Positions 7,700 through 21,964 of a stretch of DNA of 36,306 nucleotides are shown one piece after another. A program made the position numbers and the translations under genes. Positions within the stretch are counted from its first letter, which is position 1, and each line of letters opens with the position of its first letter. Source of the stretch: a virus; the IMG/VR virus record IMGVR_UViG_3300046777_002578, positions 1 through 36,306 of that record. The stretch is one strand, 5' to 3'. The notes beneath the pieces are model-generated. The model was not told where the DNA came from. It saw nothing but the letters and a program-made list of their open reading frames with translations, and did no database searches.

Positions 7700-9853
7700 T
7701 CAGGCCTCCATGGTCATGAGTTGGTCGGCCAGCGCCGCGATGCGGTCGGGGTCGTAAGTTGCGGGGCCAGCGCGCACGGCGCCGCCGCGGGCGAAGTTCT
7801 GTTGGCGCTCGTCGCCGACGACGTTGCCGCGCCAGTCGTACTTGAGCCGCTGCCCTTCCGGCACGACCATGTTGTGCAGCTGCTGAATCTGCTCTCCGGT
7901 CAGGTATCCGTGCTCCGGCAACTCTGCGCCGGCCTTCTTCAGCGTCTCGAGCTCAGCGTTGTTGAACACCTCGCGCATCGGGCGCATGCCGGTGTTCTGA
8001 ATGTCCCCCACTCGCCCCCACTGCCCGCTGCGCACAAAGTCCTGCACGTAGGGGAGGTATTCCTCCTTCGGGGCGCGGTTGGCCTTGCCCTTGATTTGGA
8101 CGATGTCGTCGAGTTCGCTGACCGGGAAACGCTCTTGCAGAAGTTCGTCGTAGATCTCTTCGTAAATGTCTTCGATCGCCCGCTCATCACCGTCGCCCTT
8201 GACGCTCCAAGCGACTTCTTCAGCCTCTCTGACCAGCGCGTCTTCGTCTCCCTCCGGGACCGTGCGCGTGCCTTTGGGATTGGTTTCTATGGTCACGTGC
8301 GGCTGACCTTTCGCGTCGCGCAGAGAGAAGATCCGCGACCGCCCCTCGACCACATCCGGGCAGTAGCCGCCGACGCAGTGGCCCATCACCTCGCCTTCGT
8401 ACTTGAGGGCGTCTTCGAGCGAGCGGCCATAGTGCGCGCGGCTGAACTTGTCCAGCGCGTCGGCTTCTGTGTACGCCAATCCGACGCCTTCCAACATGCG
8501 CCCTTGCGGGTCGACCACGGCGTAGCTGCGGGCGCCCATGTGCCCCTCGGGCAGGCGCTCGTTGCGGATGACGCTCAAGGAGTAGCCTTCGGGCAGCCCG
8601 GAGGTCTTCTCCGGCATCTTCAACTCCACCCACTTGTACCCCTGCTCCGGGTACTCCTTGAACACCTGCGTGGCCGGGTTCATGGCGCGGGCGGCGTCGG
8701 CTTCAGCCTTCTGCGCCGCGCGCCACTTGTTGATGTCCGCCACGCGCTGCACCGCCTGCGGCACGGTGACCTTGTCCAGGTCGGAGTACTTCCACAGCAG
8801 CTCGCGCGGCAAGCCCGACTCCGGGTTCACTGCGTTGCGGAGTTCGTCGATGAGATGGTTGAAGCCGAGGTTCTCGTTGCGCGCGGTGCTGCCGGGGTAC
8901 ATTGAGTACACAGTCGTCTCGGGCGGCACCTTGAGCAACCAGGGGTTTTCTTTGATCAGGTCCTCGTACTTTTTCTTCTGGAAAGAGGCTCCCTCGCTGA
9001 GATCGTGAAACCTTTGCGCGGGGCCGGCGTCTATCGGCGCGTCCGCCAGCACCTCCCAGTCCGTGGCGAGCTGGCTCTTGGCCACGCCGTGGCGCGGGTA
9101 GCCTGCTGATGTGCGGGCGAACGCCGTGTCCGACGGCAACACCGCCATCTGCGGCTCGAAGTGCAACACCCCGCGTTCAGCGAGCGCCCGGACAGGATCC
9201 TCCGGCGTGCCCATCTCGTTGCGGATGTAGCCTGCGAGCTTCTTGTCGATCCAGCGGTTGAGGGCAGACTCTTGCGGCGGCAACTGTTGCGCAGCGACGA
9301 ACTCACGAAGCTCTTCGTCGCTGCGGTTGACGCCTGCGCGGCGCAAGGCTTGCATCGCTTCAGCCTCTGGATCTCGCTTCAACGGCTTCACCGCGCCTTC
9401 CACGGTGCCCGCGAGCCAGTTGCCGCCCTTGGGCTTGATGACCGCCGCGCCCGGCATGCCCGACACACCCTGCGCCGAGCGCACGTAGTTGCGGATGGCG
9501 TTCACGTCCGTCGCGCGCTTCACGGCGCCCAACCCTGCGCGCGCCACGTTCGTGGCCCCGGCCCCGCCGGTGAGGGCGCCGAGCCCGGACATGGCGCGGG
9601 CCGCGGGCCGCTCGTCGTACCCGGGCAGGTACTCGCGGTAGAAGTCCGAGGTGGGCAACACCGGAGTCTCGTTCTGGATGCCGGGCAGCATGCGCACCAG
9701 ACCTTCAATGTCGCCGGGCAGGCCCAACAATCCTGCCGCCCAACCCCGGGCCAGCTGCAGCGGGGCGTTCACCCCGCGGCTCTGGTTCAGGCGCTCAGGT
9801 CGTCGGCCGGAGGACGGGTAGATGCCAAACGCGGCACCAGTTGGTTCAGCCAT
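7700..9853 (-). CDS. Large virion-module protein with a PcfJ-like motif
   Basis: 717 codons from the ATG at 9853, which I prefer to an upstream frame start at 9907 because AAAGGAG lies 10 bases before it and because the upstream gene's stop overlaps it by 8 bases. The N-terminal third has Gly/Ala-rich stretches (AMSGLGALTGGAGATNVARAG), possibly membrane-active. Near residue 490 is GEVMGHCVGGYC, followed by SRIFSLRDAKGQPHVTIE, which matches the core of PcfJ-type proteins (xHCVGGYxxxxxxGxxxIxSLR, then xxxTIE). Two Cys and the His of the core are present. A motif NFARGG occurs 35 residues from the C-terminus. PcfJ-type proteins are known from conjugative plasmids and phages, function unclear. 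Its location between terminase and portal suggests an internal or ejected protein; this is inference. Confidence 0.65.
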   Translation of the reverse strand: MAEPTGAAFGIYPSSGRRPERLNQSRGVNAPLQLARGWAAGLLGLPGDIEGLVRMLPGIQNETPVLPTSDFYREYLPGYDERPAARAMSGLGALTGGAGATNVARAGLGAVKRATDVNAIRNYVRSAQGVSGMPGAAVIKPKGGNWLAGTVEGAVKPLKRDPEAEAMQALRRAGVNRSDEELREFVAAQQLPPQESALNRWIDKKLAGYIRNEMGTPEDPVRALAERGVLHFEPQMAVLPSDTAFARTSAGYPRHGVAKSQLATDWEVLADAPIDAGPAQRFHDLSEGASFQKKKYEDLIKENPWLLKVPPETTVYSMYPGSTARNENLGFNHLIDELRNAVNPESGLPRELLWKYSDLDKVTVPQAVQRVADINKWRAAQKAEADAARAMNPATQVFKEYPEQGYKWVELKMPEKTSGLPEGYSLSVIRNERLPEGHMGARSYAVVDPQGRMLEGVGLAYTEADALDKFSRAHYGRSLEDALKYEGEVMGHCVGGYCPDVVEGRSRIFSLRDAKGQPHVTIETNPKGTRTVPEGDEDALVREAEEVAWSVKGDGDERAIEDIYEEIYDELLQERFPVSELDDIVQIKGKANRAPKEEYLPYVQDFVRSGQWGRVGDIQNTGMRPMREVFNNAELETLKKAGAELPEHGYLTGEQIQQLHNMVVPEGQRLKYDWRGNVVGDERQQNFARGGAVRAGPATYDPDRIAALADQLMTMEA

Positions 9854-10637
9854 GGCAGCTGCACTCCTTTGCTTGGGCGAGGCCGCCGCGGGCAAACTTC
9901 TTTTCACGAAGGATGTCTAACATGGTGGGCTCGGCCCGGCGGTAAAACTCAGCCGGTGAAGACCTGGGGTCAAAGCCCATGGGCTGCCGCGGCAACATAA
10001 ACTCTTGGCGGCCGCGGCCCTGTTCAGCCCGGCGGCTTAGCAAGACCAACGGAGCAACGTCTTTCATTAGATCGCCGGCGCCGTTGTACTCAAAATAATC
10101 CCTGAACAAGGGATCATCCATCACCGAACGCAAACGACCGCGACTAGCTGCGTACTGCAACTCTTTGGTCGCGTCGTCAAAGGTCTGGGTGTTAAAAATA
10201 CGCGACGGCTGATCAGTGGCAAAGAAGTGGTAGGAAGTGCTGTCAGGTCGACTGGGCGGCGCCGCAATCAACGACCGCAGTTCTCCCACTGACGGGTACA
10301 AATCACGATCGGGATAGTACCAACCATAGTAGCTCGCGTCTGTTTCGCTGGGCGCCACGCCAATAATTGAGGCCCGACGAGGAGCGGCTGGGTGGGTGTG
10401 AAAGTCAAGCACCGGCTGGCCAGAACGCAATGATCTTTCGCGATCGGCCTTGCTAGGCCGAACCTCATCTTCAGTGCCCCGCACAATACGCGACCGCACA
10501 TCCGCCTGCTTGGCAGGACCCACAACAGCGTGCTCTAAGCCTGACTCAGACGAGCGGCGCAACGCCTCACGGGCGACATCAGCTTGCGCTGGCGCCTCGC
10601 GGCGCAGCAACAGCATGAGCTTGGCAAGCGGACCCAT
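9846..10637 (-). CDS. JAB/MPN-like putative metalloprotease-fold protein
   Basis: 263 codons, ATG at 10637, two bases after the large terminase stop. Residues 78-84 read DFHTHPA and residues 115-120 PSVGEL. The JAMM motif of JAB1/MPN peptidases is HxHP, a gap, then SxxD with an upstream Glu; here His80, His82 and Ser116 fit, Glu119 replaces Asp, and Glu35 is a candidate upstream acid. The gap between HTHP and PS is long (about 32 residues) with Tyr/Asp-rich sequence, as in JAB-like domains of phage and toxin proteins. The C-terminus has KKFARGGLAQ, a motif shared with the downstream PcfJ-like protein. It could process virion proteins or act on a host isopeptide-like bond; the Asp-to-Glu change leaves activity uncertain. 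The final residues (AKECSCHG) overlap the next gene. Confidence 0.5.
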   Translation of the reverse strand: MGPLAKLMLLLRREAPAQADVAREALRRSSESGLEHAVVGPAKQADVRSRIVRGTEDEVRPSKADRERSLRSGQPVLDFHTHPAAPRRASIIGVAPSETDASYYGWYYPDRDLYPSVGELRSLIAAPPSRPDSTSYHFFATDQPSRIFNTQTFDDATKELQYAASRGRLRSVMDDPLFRDYFEYNGAGDLMKDVAPLVLLSRRAEQGRGRQEFMLPRQPMGFDPRSSPAEFYRRAEPTMLDILREKKFARGGLAQAKECSCHG

Positions 10638-12960: not shown

Positions 12961-13296
12961 ATGATTAAACATCAGCAAGCTTTCTATGCTATTGTTTTAG
13001 AACTACCTTTGGCCACACGGCGGCGGTACGAAACGCAAATCAAAATGCTCCAAGATCTTCTGGGCGATGACACCGACGTTTTTGTGGACCGCCGTGGCAA
13101 GCACTGGGCTGAGCGCCGGGTGGCGCCGATGCTTCGCGTCGATGTGCGTGGAAAGGGTACCAATGACATGACGTACGAGGAGGCCAGCCAATTTGTGTGC
13201 CGCACCACTAAGCAAATTCAAACGGCTTTGTCCATTGGGCGAGGTGCTGCGTATTTCCGCGTCGGCGACGACATCATTACCGTTCAGAAGCTTTAA
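12961..13296 (+). CDS. First rightward gene, unknown 111-aa protein
   Basis: 111 codons from ATG 12961; an in-frame upstream start at 12895 is less likely because GGGGGC lies just before 12961 and the intervening sequence has intergenic composition. The product starts MIKHQQAFYAIVLELPLATRR and continues with a basic, mixed alpha/beta sequence. The C-terminal half (YEEASQFVCRTTKQIQTALS, then GRGAAYFRVGDDIITVQKL) could hold a helix-turn-helix followed by strands, which would suit an early regulator, but I do not recognise a family. Being the first gene on the plus strand next to the divergent control region makes a regulatory or takeover function plausible only by position. Confidence 0.6.
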   Translation: MIKHQQAFYAIVLELPLATRRRYETQIKMLQDLLGDDTDVFVDRRGKHWAERRVAPMLRVDVRGKGTNDMTYEEASQFVCRTTKQIQTALSIGRGAAYFRVGDDIITVQKL

Positions 13297-13303
13297 CACG
13301 CGC

Positions 13304-13473
13304 TATAGTCGACGCCGCCGGCACGCAACTCATCCTCCTCCGCAAGAGGGCTCCGGGTGGTCTCTTCCTCAGCAAAAGGGTTTGCGTGCCGGCACCTTAT
13401 TGGTCGGGGGCTGGGGCTCCGTCAGTAGACGCCGGCCAACTGCTGAGGAACGGCGCACCACTAACGGAGTCCC
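13304..13473 (+). promoter_or_regulatory. Structured leader of the primase-helicase gene, hiding its ribosome-binding site
   Basis: A -10-like TATAGT (13304-13309) with no clear -35 would place transcription start near 13316. Exactly there begins a perfect 12-base inverted repeat: GCCGGCACGCAA (13317-13328) with TTGCGTGCCGGC (13382-13393), enclosing a smaller AAGAG/CTCTT stem. A second element pairs GGGCTCCGT (13414-13422) with ACGGAGTCCC (13464-13473, one bulged T), which covers the GGAG Shine-Dalgarno at 13466-13469 of the GTG start at 13475. An inner CAGT/ACTG pair extends it. This fits a translational control leader; no known riboswitch class is recognised. Confidence 0.5.
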
Positions 13474-13474
13474 T

Positions 13475-15541
13475 GTGGCCAAAACCGCCCATGAAAAAGC
13501 CGTCTCCCTAGGAGACGCCAAATTACAAAGTTCTGGCCTCACGTTGGCCGACGCCAAGCTGCTTGGCATGCATTGCTTAGGTCCTCAGCAAACGGCCCGG
13601 TTGCATCCCGCCTTCAAACCCTTGTGCAGCCTACAGCTGGACTACCTGGGGCCTGACGGGCAGCCGCTGCCCGATTGGCCTGGGGCCCAGCCGTTTTACC
13701 GCTTGCGGTACCTGGAAACGCCAACGGACTTTGCTTCTTTGGCCGACAAGAAGCCGCTGCGCTACGTACAGGCACCCAACACGGCCCCGGTCGCCTACTA
13801 CCCGTCCAATTGCCAGTGGGCCGGGCTGTTGTCCGATCCAGACCGGCCACTAGTGCTGACCGAGGGCGAGCTCAAAGCGGCCAAGGCCTGCAAGGAAGGT
13901 TTTCCCACCATTGGGCTGGGCGGTGTCTACAACTGGCGCAGCTACAAGCTGGGTTTGACCTGGTTGCCTAGCTTGGACCACGTAGTTTGGCTCAAGCGGA
14001 ACGTTTACATCTGTTTTGACAGCGACTACCAAACCAACCCCATGGTGTGCAACGCGCTGCGGGAACTGGCCGACGAGTTGCATCGGCGCGGCGCCTTTGT
14101 GCACCTAGTCAGCTTGCCACAGCTGCCGGGGTTGGACAAAGTAGGTCTAGACGACTTCCTTGTGCATGCGGGCCCATCGGCGGTTGAGATGTTCCGTGGC
14201 TTGTTGACTGAGGCCGAGCCGCTGGGGTTGACAGCGCCTCTCTGGACCCTCAACGACAAGTACGTCTACGTCCAGGACCCAGGCCTCATTGTCAACCAGT
14301 CAACCCGGTTCAAAGCCAGCCCGTCCGCCTTCAAAGAGCATTTGGAGGCCCCGCTGAACTACCACGAGCGGGGGCTCAAAGCCGACGGCAGCGTGAGCTT
14401 TAAGGCCGTGTCAGCCGCCGTAGCTTGGTTGCGCTGGCCCTTGCGAACAGAAGTGACCAGGCTGACATACCGGCCAGGTGCTGAGCAGTTTCTGGACCGG
14501 CAGTTCAATATCTGGCCTGGTTGGGGTGTGGCGCCAGCTTCAGGCGACGTGGATTTGTTCCTGCAGTTGGTAGAGCACATCTTTACCGGGGCCGAGATTG
14601 AAGCGCAGCTTTGGTTCCTGCGTTGGTGCGCCTATCCGCTGCAGTATCCAGGGGTCAAGCTGTTTAGCTCGGCCGTCATCCATGGCATCAAGCATGGTAC
14701 CGGCAAGTCGCTGCTGGGCTACACTTTGGGCCGCATCTACGGCAAGAACTTCACTGAGATCAGCCAGATGGACCTGCACAACAGCTTCAATGAGTGGGCC
14801 GAAGGCAAGCAGTTTGTCATGGGCGACGACGTGACCGGGTCAAATAAGCGGCAAGATGCCGACTTTTTGAAGAAACTCATCACTCAGCGGGAGCTGCGGG
14901 TCAATGGCAAGTACGTGCCTACCTACACGGTGCCCGATTGCATCAACTACTACTTCACAGCTAATCACCCTGACAGCTTCTTTTTGGAAGACGACGACCG
15001 GCGGTTCTTTGTGCACGAGGTGCAGGTAGGAGCCTTGCCAGAAGAGTTCTATGCTGAGTATGACCTTTGGCTAGACACTGGCGGCTCAGGTGCTGTGTTT
15101 CAGTATCTGTTGAATTTAGACCTTGGCGATTTCAACCCGGCGGCCCCAGCCTTCAAGACAGCCGCCAAAGAGCGGATGATTGCCAACGTGCAAAGTGACT
15201 TGGCCGGCTGGGTGCGGGGCCTTATGGCCACACCGGACCAGGTGCTGCGGGTTGGGGAGTTGGTCATTGACAAGGACTTGTTCACTAGCAAGGAGCTGCT
15301 GCAGTTCTATGACCCTGCCGGCAAGACAGGCACGACCGCCAACGGGCTGGGCCGCGAGCTGGCACGGGCCGGGGTCAGACAGGTGTGCAATGGACGACCG
15401 GTTCGCTTGACCGACGGCAGTCAGGCTCGGTACTACGCGGTGCGGCGTCCTGACACGTGGTTGACAGCCACTGCCACAGTTGTCGTCACCCATTTGGATG
15501 CTTGGTTGCGACGTCAAACAAACAAAGTCGCGAAATACTAA
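13475..15541 (+). CDS. Primase-helicase (TOPRIM DUF3854-like plus SF3-type helicase)
   Basis: 688 codons from GTG 13475, chosen because GGAG lies five bases upstream; the open frame extends back into the previous gene but with non-coding composition. Residues about 125-235 carry a TOPRIM-like primase region (LVLTEGELKAAKACKEG, IGLGGVYNWR, VYICFDSDY, KVGLDDFL). The C-terminal part has a Walker A (GIKHGTGKS, about residues 405-412), the Walker B-like FVMGDDV, and the SF3/D5-type sensor segment INYYFTANHPDSFFLEDDDRRFF. It should unwind DNA and synthesise RNA primers at the phage fork, working with the PolA further downstream. The D5-like helicase order and DUF5906-type domain are common in temperate-like and environmental phages. 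Confidence 0.85.
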   Translation: MAKTAHEKAVSLGDAKLQSSGLTLADAKLLGMHCLGPQQTARLHPAFKPLCSLQLDYLGPDGQPLPDWPGAQPFYRLRYLETPTDFASLADKKPLRYVQAPNTAPVAYYPSNCQWAGLLSDPDRPLVLTEGELKAAKACKEGFPTIGLGGVYNWRSYKLGLTWLPSLDHVVWLKRNVYICFDSDYQTNPMVCNALRELADELHRRGAFVHLVSLPQLPGLDKVGLDDFLVHAGPSAVEMFRGLLTEAEPLGLTAPLWTLNDKYVYVQDPGLIVNQSTRFKASPSAFKEHLEAPLNYHERGLKADGSVSFKAVSAAVAWLRWPLRTEVTRLTYRPGAEQFLDRQFNIWPGWGVAPASGDVDLFLQLVEHIFTGAEIEAQLWFLRWCAYPLQYPGVKLFSSAVIHGIKHGTGKSLLGYTLGRIYGKNFTEISQMDLHNSFNEWAEGKQFVMGDDVTGSNKRQDADFLKKLITQRELRVNGKYVPTYTVPDCINYYFTANHPDSFFLEDDDRRFFVHEVQVGALPEEFYAEYDLWLDTGGSGAVFQYLLNLDLGDFNPAAPAFKTAAKERMIANVQSDLAGWVRGLMATPDQVLRVGELVIDKDLFTSKELLQFYDPAGKTGTTANGLGRELARAGVRQVCNGRPVRLTDGSQARYYAVRRPDTWLTATATVVVTHLDAWLRRQTNKVAKY

Positions 15542-21164: not shown

Positions 21165-21557
21165 ATGGCTGAGACCACGTTCAAACCACCCAAAAGCCTG
21201 GGCGCTTGCGCCGACCGCTTGTACGAGCTGCGTCAGCAACGATTGGCCGTCCAAAAGGAAGTCGACAAGCTAGCGGCTGAAGAAACCTTTTTGCGCGAGC
21301 ACATCATCAACACGCTTCCTAAGTCCGAAGCATCTGGCATTGCTGGTAAACTGGCCCGGGTCACTGTGGTCACCAAGCAGGTGCCGCAGGTCAAGGACTG
21401 GGACGCTTTCTACAAGTTCGTCAAGAAAACCGGCAGCTTTGACCTGCTGCAGCGGCGGCTCACTGACCAAGCCATCAAGGAGCGCTGGGAGGCGGGCAAG
21501 GAGGTGCCTGGGGTTGAGCACTTCAACGCCGTGTCTATCAGCCTCAACAAGGTATGA
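21165..21557 (+). CDS. Early-region protein with N-terminal coiled coil (130 aa)
   Basis: 130 codons from ATG 21165 after promoter P3. Residues about 15-50 form a coiled coil (RLYELRQQRLAVQKEVDKLA, then EETFLREHIINTLPKSEASG), followed by a compact domain with GKLARVTVVTKQVPQVKDWD, FYKFVKKTGSFDLLQRRL and a C-terminal strand HFNAVSISLNKV. This layout is familiar from small proteins next to DNA polymerase in environmental phages, and from Gam-like coiled-coil DNA-end proteins in a very general sense, but I cannot assign it. Its stop overlaps the start of the endonuclease V-like gene as ATGA. Confidence 0.7.
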   Translation: MAETTFKPPKSLGACADRLYELRQQRLAVQKEVDKLAAEETFLREHIINTLPKSEASGIAGKLARVTVVTKQVPQVKDWDAFYKFVKKTGSFDLLQRRLTDQAIKERWEAGKEVPGVEHFNAVSISLNKV

Positions 21558-21964
21558 CCCGCATCAATTGCGTGCCGGCGGCCGAGCTGTGCCGCCAACA
21601 CCTGGTGGCTGAGTACCGCGAGCTGCCCCGTGTATTCAAGCTAGCTGAGGCTGCAGCGCACCGAGGGCAGGTGCAGGCACCCGACGACTACACCTTGGGC
21701 CCTGGGCATGTGAAGTTTTTCTACACTCGCCTGGGCTACTGCCGGCGCCGTTTCCAAGAGCTGGTGGCCGAGCTGCTTCGCCGCGGCTACCACCCGCAGT
21801 ATACTAGCTGTCCGGCCGTCGAGGTGCCGGCCGGCTGGCACCAAGATTGGCAACCGACTGCCGCCAACCTACAGCTGAACCGACAACGTTTGGCCGACCG
21901 TCAACCCAAGCCCGTTGCGTTTAGGCGCGCGCAACTGGTTTCCACTCAGCGTCTGTACCAGTAA
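21554..21964 (+). CDS. denV: Pyrimidine-dimer DNA glycosylase/AP lyase, T4 endonuclease V-like
   Basis: 136 codons from ATG 21554. The N-terminus MTRIN, then ELCRQHLVAEYRELPRVFKL is nearly that of T4 endonuclease V (MTRIN, ELADQHLMAEYRELPRVFG). The catalytic Thr2 (N-terminal amine after Met removal) and Glu23 are both kept, as are Arg3, His16, Arg22 and Arg26. LGPGHVKFFYTRLGYCRRRF, QELVAELLRRGYHP and the C-terminal segment with LQLNRQRLADRQ also follow the family. The enzyme removes UV-induced cyclobutane dimers by glycosylase and AP lyase steps. Length (136) equals the T4 enzyme (138). It lies in the replication block between a coiled-coil protein and the zinc-motif protein, implying early expression to repair incoming sunlight-damaged DNA. 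Confidence 0.92.
   Translation: MTRINCVPAAELCRQHLVAEYRELPRVFKLAEAAAHRGQVQAPDDYTLGPGHVKFFYTRLGYCRRRFQELVAELLRRGYHPQYTSCPAVEVPAGWHQDWQPTAANLQLNRQRLADRQPKPVAFRRAQLVSTQRLYQ

Follow-up and report, generated by a model that had tools for sequence, protein, structure and literature searches.

Does the untranslated region ahead of a phage primase-helicase gene act as an RNA switch on the synthesis of the primase? The question was raised by a stretch of phage DNA, an entire IMG/VR virus record of 36,306 bases that is referred to here as the window, in which an inverted repeat and other potential stems lie between a TATAGT hexamer and the start codon of that gene. The primase-helicase gene (13475–15541, + strand) has a GTG start and encodes 688 aa, with DUF3854 and DUF5906 assigned by Pfam and a PHROG DNA primase match (5.7e-30). 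Using Pfam and PHROG, the genes to the left of the leader (terminase, portal and head) were found to run leftward and those to its right (ligase, DNA polymerase, helicase, exonuclease and thymidylate synthase) to run rightward. Hence, the leader stands at the head of the replication genes. The primase reading frame is open upstream to 13193, but in this phage only, and an extended N-terminus was ruled out because the relatives have stops there.

Further features of the window were noted. A small gene (12961–13296, +; ending ...DDIITVQKL) lies directly before the leader and is similar in a subset of the relatives; it is a candidate regulator, and in phages without the RNA genes of similar appearance seem to be placed immediately ahead of the primase gene. 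A gene for a PcfJ-like protein (PF14284), usually associated with conjugative plasmids, is located between the terminase and portal genes (7700–9907, −), and a pyrimidine dimer DNA glycosylase-like gene (PF03013) is at 21554–21964 (+). No integrase was found in the part of the window's ORFs that was scanned.

Promoter and probable transcript start

The leader is preceded by a sigma-70-like promoter (13283–13309, +; TTCAGA, 15 nt, TATAGT), and its TATAGT hexamer, at 13304–13309, is 7 bases ahead of the inverted repeat, which forms the helix designated P1 here. The −35 element in the window is weak (TTCAGA, with a 15 nt spacer) and shares bases with the end of the preceding gene, and a strict consensus scan of the window did not report a promoter at this location. 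In the set of 51 leaders, the promoter of the relatives has the form TTTACA/G, 17–18 nt, TAnAAT, the spacer being 17–18 nt in 45/51, and the −10 hexamer is separated from the first base of P1 by 5–7 nt in 43/51. As this gap is fixed, the transcript probably starts at P1, and the earlier claim of a start at the inverted repeat gains support from the conserved promoter at a fixed distance in relatives. The element occupies the 5′ UTR, from the promoter to the start codon, as is found in translational leaders.

Structure of the leader

The inverted repeat is real, with GCCGGCACGCAA (13317–13328) perfectly complementary to TTGCGTGCCGGC (13382–13393), and these 12 bp form the conserved helix P1 that closes a domain (13317–13393, +) in the relatives as well as in the window. 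This P1 domain includes two hairpins. P2 (13337–13349, +; 13337–13340/13346–13349), which appears in the minimum free energy fold, is variable and its 3′ arm overlaps a strand complementary to the Shine–Dalgarno (SD) sequence that is described below. P3 (13362–13380, +; 13362–13366/13376–13380) carries the loop CCUCAGCAA (13367–13375), which is invariant in alignment A2. A conserved ACC(U) (13394–13397, +) directly after P1 belongs to a family motif, GNCACCU, with invariant or near-invariant columns in A2, and is followed by two further hairpins. P4 (13406–13420, +; 13406–13409/13417–13420) is weak in the window and has a GCUGGGG loop, the family P4 loop containing GCUGAG, and P5 (13430–13455, +; 13430–13434/13451–13455) has the loop GCUGAGG at 13442–13448. 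The order in the family is the P1 domain with P2 and P3, GNCACCU, P4, P5, the SD and the start codon.

Folding of the 189 nt leader gave −81.2 kcal/mol compared to −71.5 kcal/mol for shuffled sequences (z −2.4, with 2/200 shuffles as good), and the leader thus folds moderately better than shuffles. In a 22-sequence alignment, 18/19 pairs of P1, P3 and P4 include changes on both sides, and the covariation score for these helices was 0.715, compared to 0.04–0.11 in slid controls. Double compensatory changes were seen in 10/11 pairs tested in P1, in all three pairs of P3 and in five pairs of P4, and 96.8 % of cells were paired in P1 and also in P3. However, MAFFT did not align the 5′ arm reliably (in A3 and in three rows of A2) and, since alignment of the variable part was unsafe, the helices were also tested sequence by sequence. 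In this self-versus-cross test, the two strands of one leader were compared to strands drawn from different leaders, using 28 cluster representatives and 20,000 permutations. The z values were 16.8 for P1, 6.8 for P3, 11.3 for P4 and 6.9 for P5 (each 0/20,000), and −0.1 and −0.2 for two control pairings. As kinship between the leaders raises the cross values, the test should be conservative. The structure of the leader is therefore well supported by covariation in all main helices. Among the paired positions, 32 cells were G-U and 3 were A-C, indicating that the molecule under selection is RNA of this strand. A covariance model built from 22 seed sequences, one of which is the window, gives the window a score of 70.2 bits (E 7.5e-21).

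Complementary loops

The P3 loop is complementary to the loops of both P4 and P5; in the window, CCUCAGC (13367–13373) in the P3 loop matches the GCUGAGG loop of P5, and the P4 loop is likewise complementary to that of P3. In two divergent phages the loops of P3, P4 and P5 all change together: the altered P3 loop CUCUCGGC of L069 is still matched by GCCGAG and GCCGAGAG, and CCUCGGCAG of L082 by CUGCCGA and CUGCCGAGG. In L053, the core is changed and its single downstream loop has changed alongside, and L093 retains one full and one partial downstream loop match. Retention of the pairing in L053, L069 and L082, where the core is altered, indicates that the pairing, not the sequence, is selected. 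From their shared complementarity to the P3 loop, P4 would appear to compete with P5 for it. When the two halves of the leader were folded in isolation, the P3 and P5 loops were mostly open (unpaired probabilities of 0.72 and 0.63), which fits with pairing that starts loop to loop.

Pairing with the ribosome-binding site

The original prediction had a second stem covering the ribosome-binding site and a third GCCGGC that would permit alternative pairings. In the window, GGGGCUCCG (13413–13421) does pair with CGGAGUCCC (13465–13473) over the SD of the GTG at 13475, and this stem is strong, but it is not conserved (z 1.0, 3146/20,000). Hence, the search for compensatory changes in relatives bore out the first stem only. 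The third GCCGGC is present at 13431–13436 but is not conserved in the relatives (z 0.9), and the alternative GCCGGC pairings are lost as a switch for the same reason. Both the first-proposed pairing of the second stem and the third GCCGGC were ruled out as conserved switches.

The conserved partner of the SD is found inside the P1 domain. The strand GGGCUCCG (13348–13355, +), which is the 5′ side of a pairing designated H-C, pairs with CGGAGUCC (13465–13472, +) in the SD region of the primase gene. In the self-versus-cross test the match of this anti-SD strand with the SD of its own gene gave z 8.7 (0/20,000), and the match survives sequence change. Thus, the proposal that the leader is able to hide the primase ribosome-binding site is upheld by covariation, though with 13348–13355 as the conserved partner and not 13413–13421. 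Pairing of the SD with a strand in this position would make a pseudoknot with P1, and is accompanied by the CCUCAGC/GCUGAGG loop pairing. Close by, GUGGU (13357–13361, +), the 5′ strand of H-B, pairs with ACCAC (13457–13461); the pair was read by eye in the window and H-B as a class gave z 3.2 (33/20,000). Pairing over the start codon (H-D) is weak and, with z only 2.0, was set aside as a conserved part.

With P1 kept intact, the long-range helix H has a mean energy of −5.2 kcal/mol for the true pairs compared to +1.2 kcal/mol for permuted pairs (0/20,000), before any pseudoknot penalty. This modelled mean, again prior to the penalty, would place H and the alternative state near balance. The net energy of H is >0 in 5/26 members with the topological cost of the pseudoknot left out, and H may be unstable in several members once that cost is counted. 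The window also includes a second copy of GGGCUCCG (13414–13421, +), specific to the window, that can pair with the SD and is dominant when the downstream part is folded alone. Owing to this private anti-SD, the unpaired probability of the SD in the window is 0.00 and the SD is predicted to be hidden whatever H does, which counts against a switch based on H.

Distribution of the leader

A search with the primase recovered 17 IMG/VR loci directly and 80 loci using a profile (the sets overlap), and 59 of the 83 primase records fetched contain a match to the covariance model with E <1e-4. When 18 whole records were searched, there was one match per record in 16, and the two others each had one extra weak match. 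Dozens of other phage contigs have the leader ahead of the same DUF3854/DUF5906 primase, and the conservation of this intergenic block does not extend to its flanks. It is also present, unannotated, in the cultured phages PW916 and AXL3 and in a Manatee Spring contig, with primases sharing approximately 54–59 % protein identity. A pattern scan that was independent of the primase found, besides chance matches in coding regions, the same primase family, HNH-like insertions and L277. In L277 a weak copy (model match 1811–1989, −, E 2e-5) precedes an ORF that could not be recognised as this primase. A reduced version, in which the P3 core motif lies almost directly before the start codon, was seen in three further loci (L090:2399–2545, L092:2383–2530 and L097:2400–2530); these retain part of the domain, and P4 and P5 hairpins were not evident in them.

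In several loci (L001/L018, L032, L034, L065 and L291) a small HNH-like gene lies between the leader and the primase gene, and that in L034 has a weak PF01844 match. The anti-SD strand matches the SD of the inserted gene in both of the cases tested (L001 and L034). In L001/L018/L032 the stop codon of the inserted gene is directly adjacent to the primase start (UAAAUG), and in L034/L065 the two are 4–5 nt apart. Through translational coupling, such an arrangement could bring the primase under the same control.

The pattern matches listed for bacterial genomes were judged by the model to be due to chance (best E 1e-3), and no copy of the element was found in 299 genomes of one bacterial order, a weak negative. 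No Rfam 15 family matched at the gathering threshold, and relaxing the cut-off to E 5 added nothing but a miRNA match that is due to chance. No description of the leader was found in the open-access literature searched. Judged on these comparisons of sequence, the leader is an RNA that is not in the Rfam library and appears not to belong to the described families tested here.

A proposed translational switch and its alternatives

The region is best read as the 5′ UTR of the primase message, and as a conserved cis-acting RNA element. We consider it likely that this element is a pseudoknot switch, nucleated by loop-loop pairing, that conceals the ribosome-binding site of whichever gene comes first downstream of the leader, usually the primase gene. 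Transcription would start at P1, as the promoter suggests, and the P1 domain would fold first, exposing the P3 loop CCUCAGCAA and, upstream of it, the strand complementary to the SD of the next gene. P4 and P5, made later, would each offer a loop complementary to the P3 loop. In the OFF state, pairing of the P3 and P5 loops would nucleate H, which would extend through H-B to the SD, crossing P1 as a pseudoknot, and ribosome binding would be blocked. In the ON state, pairing of the P3 and P4 loops, or persistence of the P2 and P3 stems, some of whose bases are also used by H, would leave the SD free. With the two states close to balance, the outcome could be decided by a factor, by the rate of transcription or by the ribosome. 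H is expected to repress translation and some signal presumably controls the switch.

An alternative, which we regard as unlikely, is that the P1 domain is processed or terminated early and acts in trans as an antisense RNA, pairing with the primase ribosome-binding site and limiting the dose of primase or excluding related phages. The tandem arrangement of an antisense domain and its target on one transcript would suit such a role, as would an antisense strand that is phage-specific and covaries with the target, and there is a precedent in the c4 RNA of phages P1 and P7, which targets the region of the ribosome-binding site in the ant mRNA and depends on its loops (PMC12197685). However, the interval from P1 to the gene has no terminator-like site on this strand, PW916, which carries the element, is reported to be lytic with no mention of an integrase, and the lack of a copy in the 299 bacterial genomes (again, a weak negative) and of an Rfam c4 match also argue against this role.

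Somewhat less probable again is a protein-binding operator, in which the P1–P5 fold would be bound by the primase, or by some other protein of the phage or host, and translation regulated, with the conserved loops as recognition sites. The element is present as a single copy, nearly always beside the primase gene, and CCUCAGCAA and GNCACCU are invariant beyond the needs of pairing (AA after CUCAGC, and CACC). However, the core changes in L053, L069 and L082 with the pairing kept, and protein binding alone does not explain the covariation of the anti-SD strand, though a bound protein could be combined with the pseudoknot switch as its trigger. Strong hairpins adjoining a replication gene could also signify a DNA-level element (a replication origin or single-strand primase site), but this is very improbable and disfavoured by the frequency of G-U and near absence of A-C (32 vs 3), the fixed spacing to the promoter, and pairing that follows the SD of the next gene even when that gene is not the primase gene. 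That the leader is simply stable, with stems that arose by chance and do not regulate anything, is favoured by the high G+C content and the modest z-score of the single fold but has hardly any probability left, as all main helices covary and the structural part of this explanation is already excluded.

Relationship to known systems

The leader resembles the c4 RNA (RF01695) of phages P1 and P7 and c4-a1b1 in being a phage RNA with loops complementary to the region around a downstream gene's ribosome-binding site, and both the loop complementarity and the covariation of the anti-SD with the SD are consistent with complementarity to sequences flanking the downstream site. However, the leader does not match the c4 Rfam covariance model, it precedes a primase or HNH-like gene whereas c4 precedes ant, and at least one phage that carries it is lytic. 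In addition, c4 is a separate, processed, trans-acting RNA of approximately 77 nt; no terminator-like site was found on this strand of the leader.

The repZ pseudoknot of plasmid ColIb-P9 opens the initiation site, while the pseudoknot predicted for the phage leader contains the SD and should close it. No leader ORF or countertranscript came to light for the phage leader. In common with the phage leader as proposed here, the repZ leader of ColIb-P9 (IncIα), which has an Inc RNA, belongs to a replication gene and has a loop-based pseudoknot as a switch on translation (Asano and Mizobuchi 1998). The phage leader also shares with translational riboswitches that sequester the SD an anti-SD strand in an alternative pairing, and the pairing with its own SD is conserved (z 8.7, 0/20,000), as in SD-sequestering leaders generally. 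However, the OFF helix is compatible with P1 in a pseudoknot, the conserved parts are loops and not an aptamer core, and there was no Rfam riboswitch match that would indicate a ligand aptamer of a known class, though a ligand outside those classes is possible.

In the phage/satellite P4, control by the CI RNA involves premature termination and immunity. As in P4, one short sequence in the leader of a primase-helicase operon has two alternative complementary sites, but in the phage leader both sites are downstream and there is covariation with the SD. The lytic nature reported for PW916 speaks against a role in immunity. By analogy, the leader is best read as working like the known SD-sequestering leaders and plasmid pseudoknot leaders.

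Implications for phage replication

As the ribosome-binding site of the primase gene has a matching antisense counterpart in its own leader, the leader probably turns primase production on and off during infection. A broader proposal can be put forward only tentatively, namely that this is a new family of phage RNAs in which a message carries its own antisense domain, and the choice of the P3 loop between two competing downstream loops would open or seal the ribosome-binding site of the first gene of the replication operon. This would involve a pseudoknot formed over a long range and would set the time at which lytic phages make their primase, and release of the domain might allow it to act in trans as well. 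Where an HNH-like gene has been inserted after such a leader, it may come to be controlled by it. The leader is a defined sequence for which pair-for-pair mutations can be predicted. The timing of phage replication is usually explained by promoters and proteins, and the conservation of this leader in a wide range of environmental phages and in the cultured phages PW916 and AXL3 points to control of the primase at the level of RNA.
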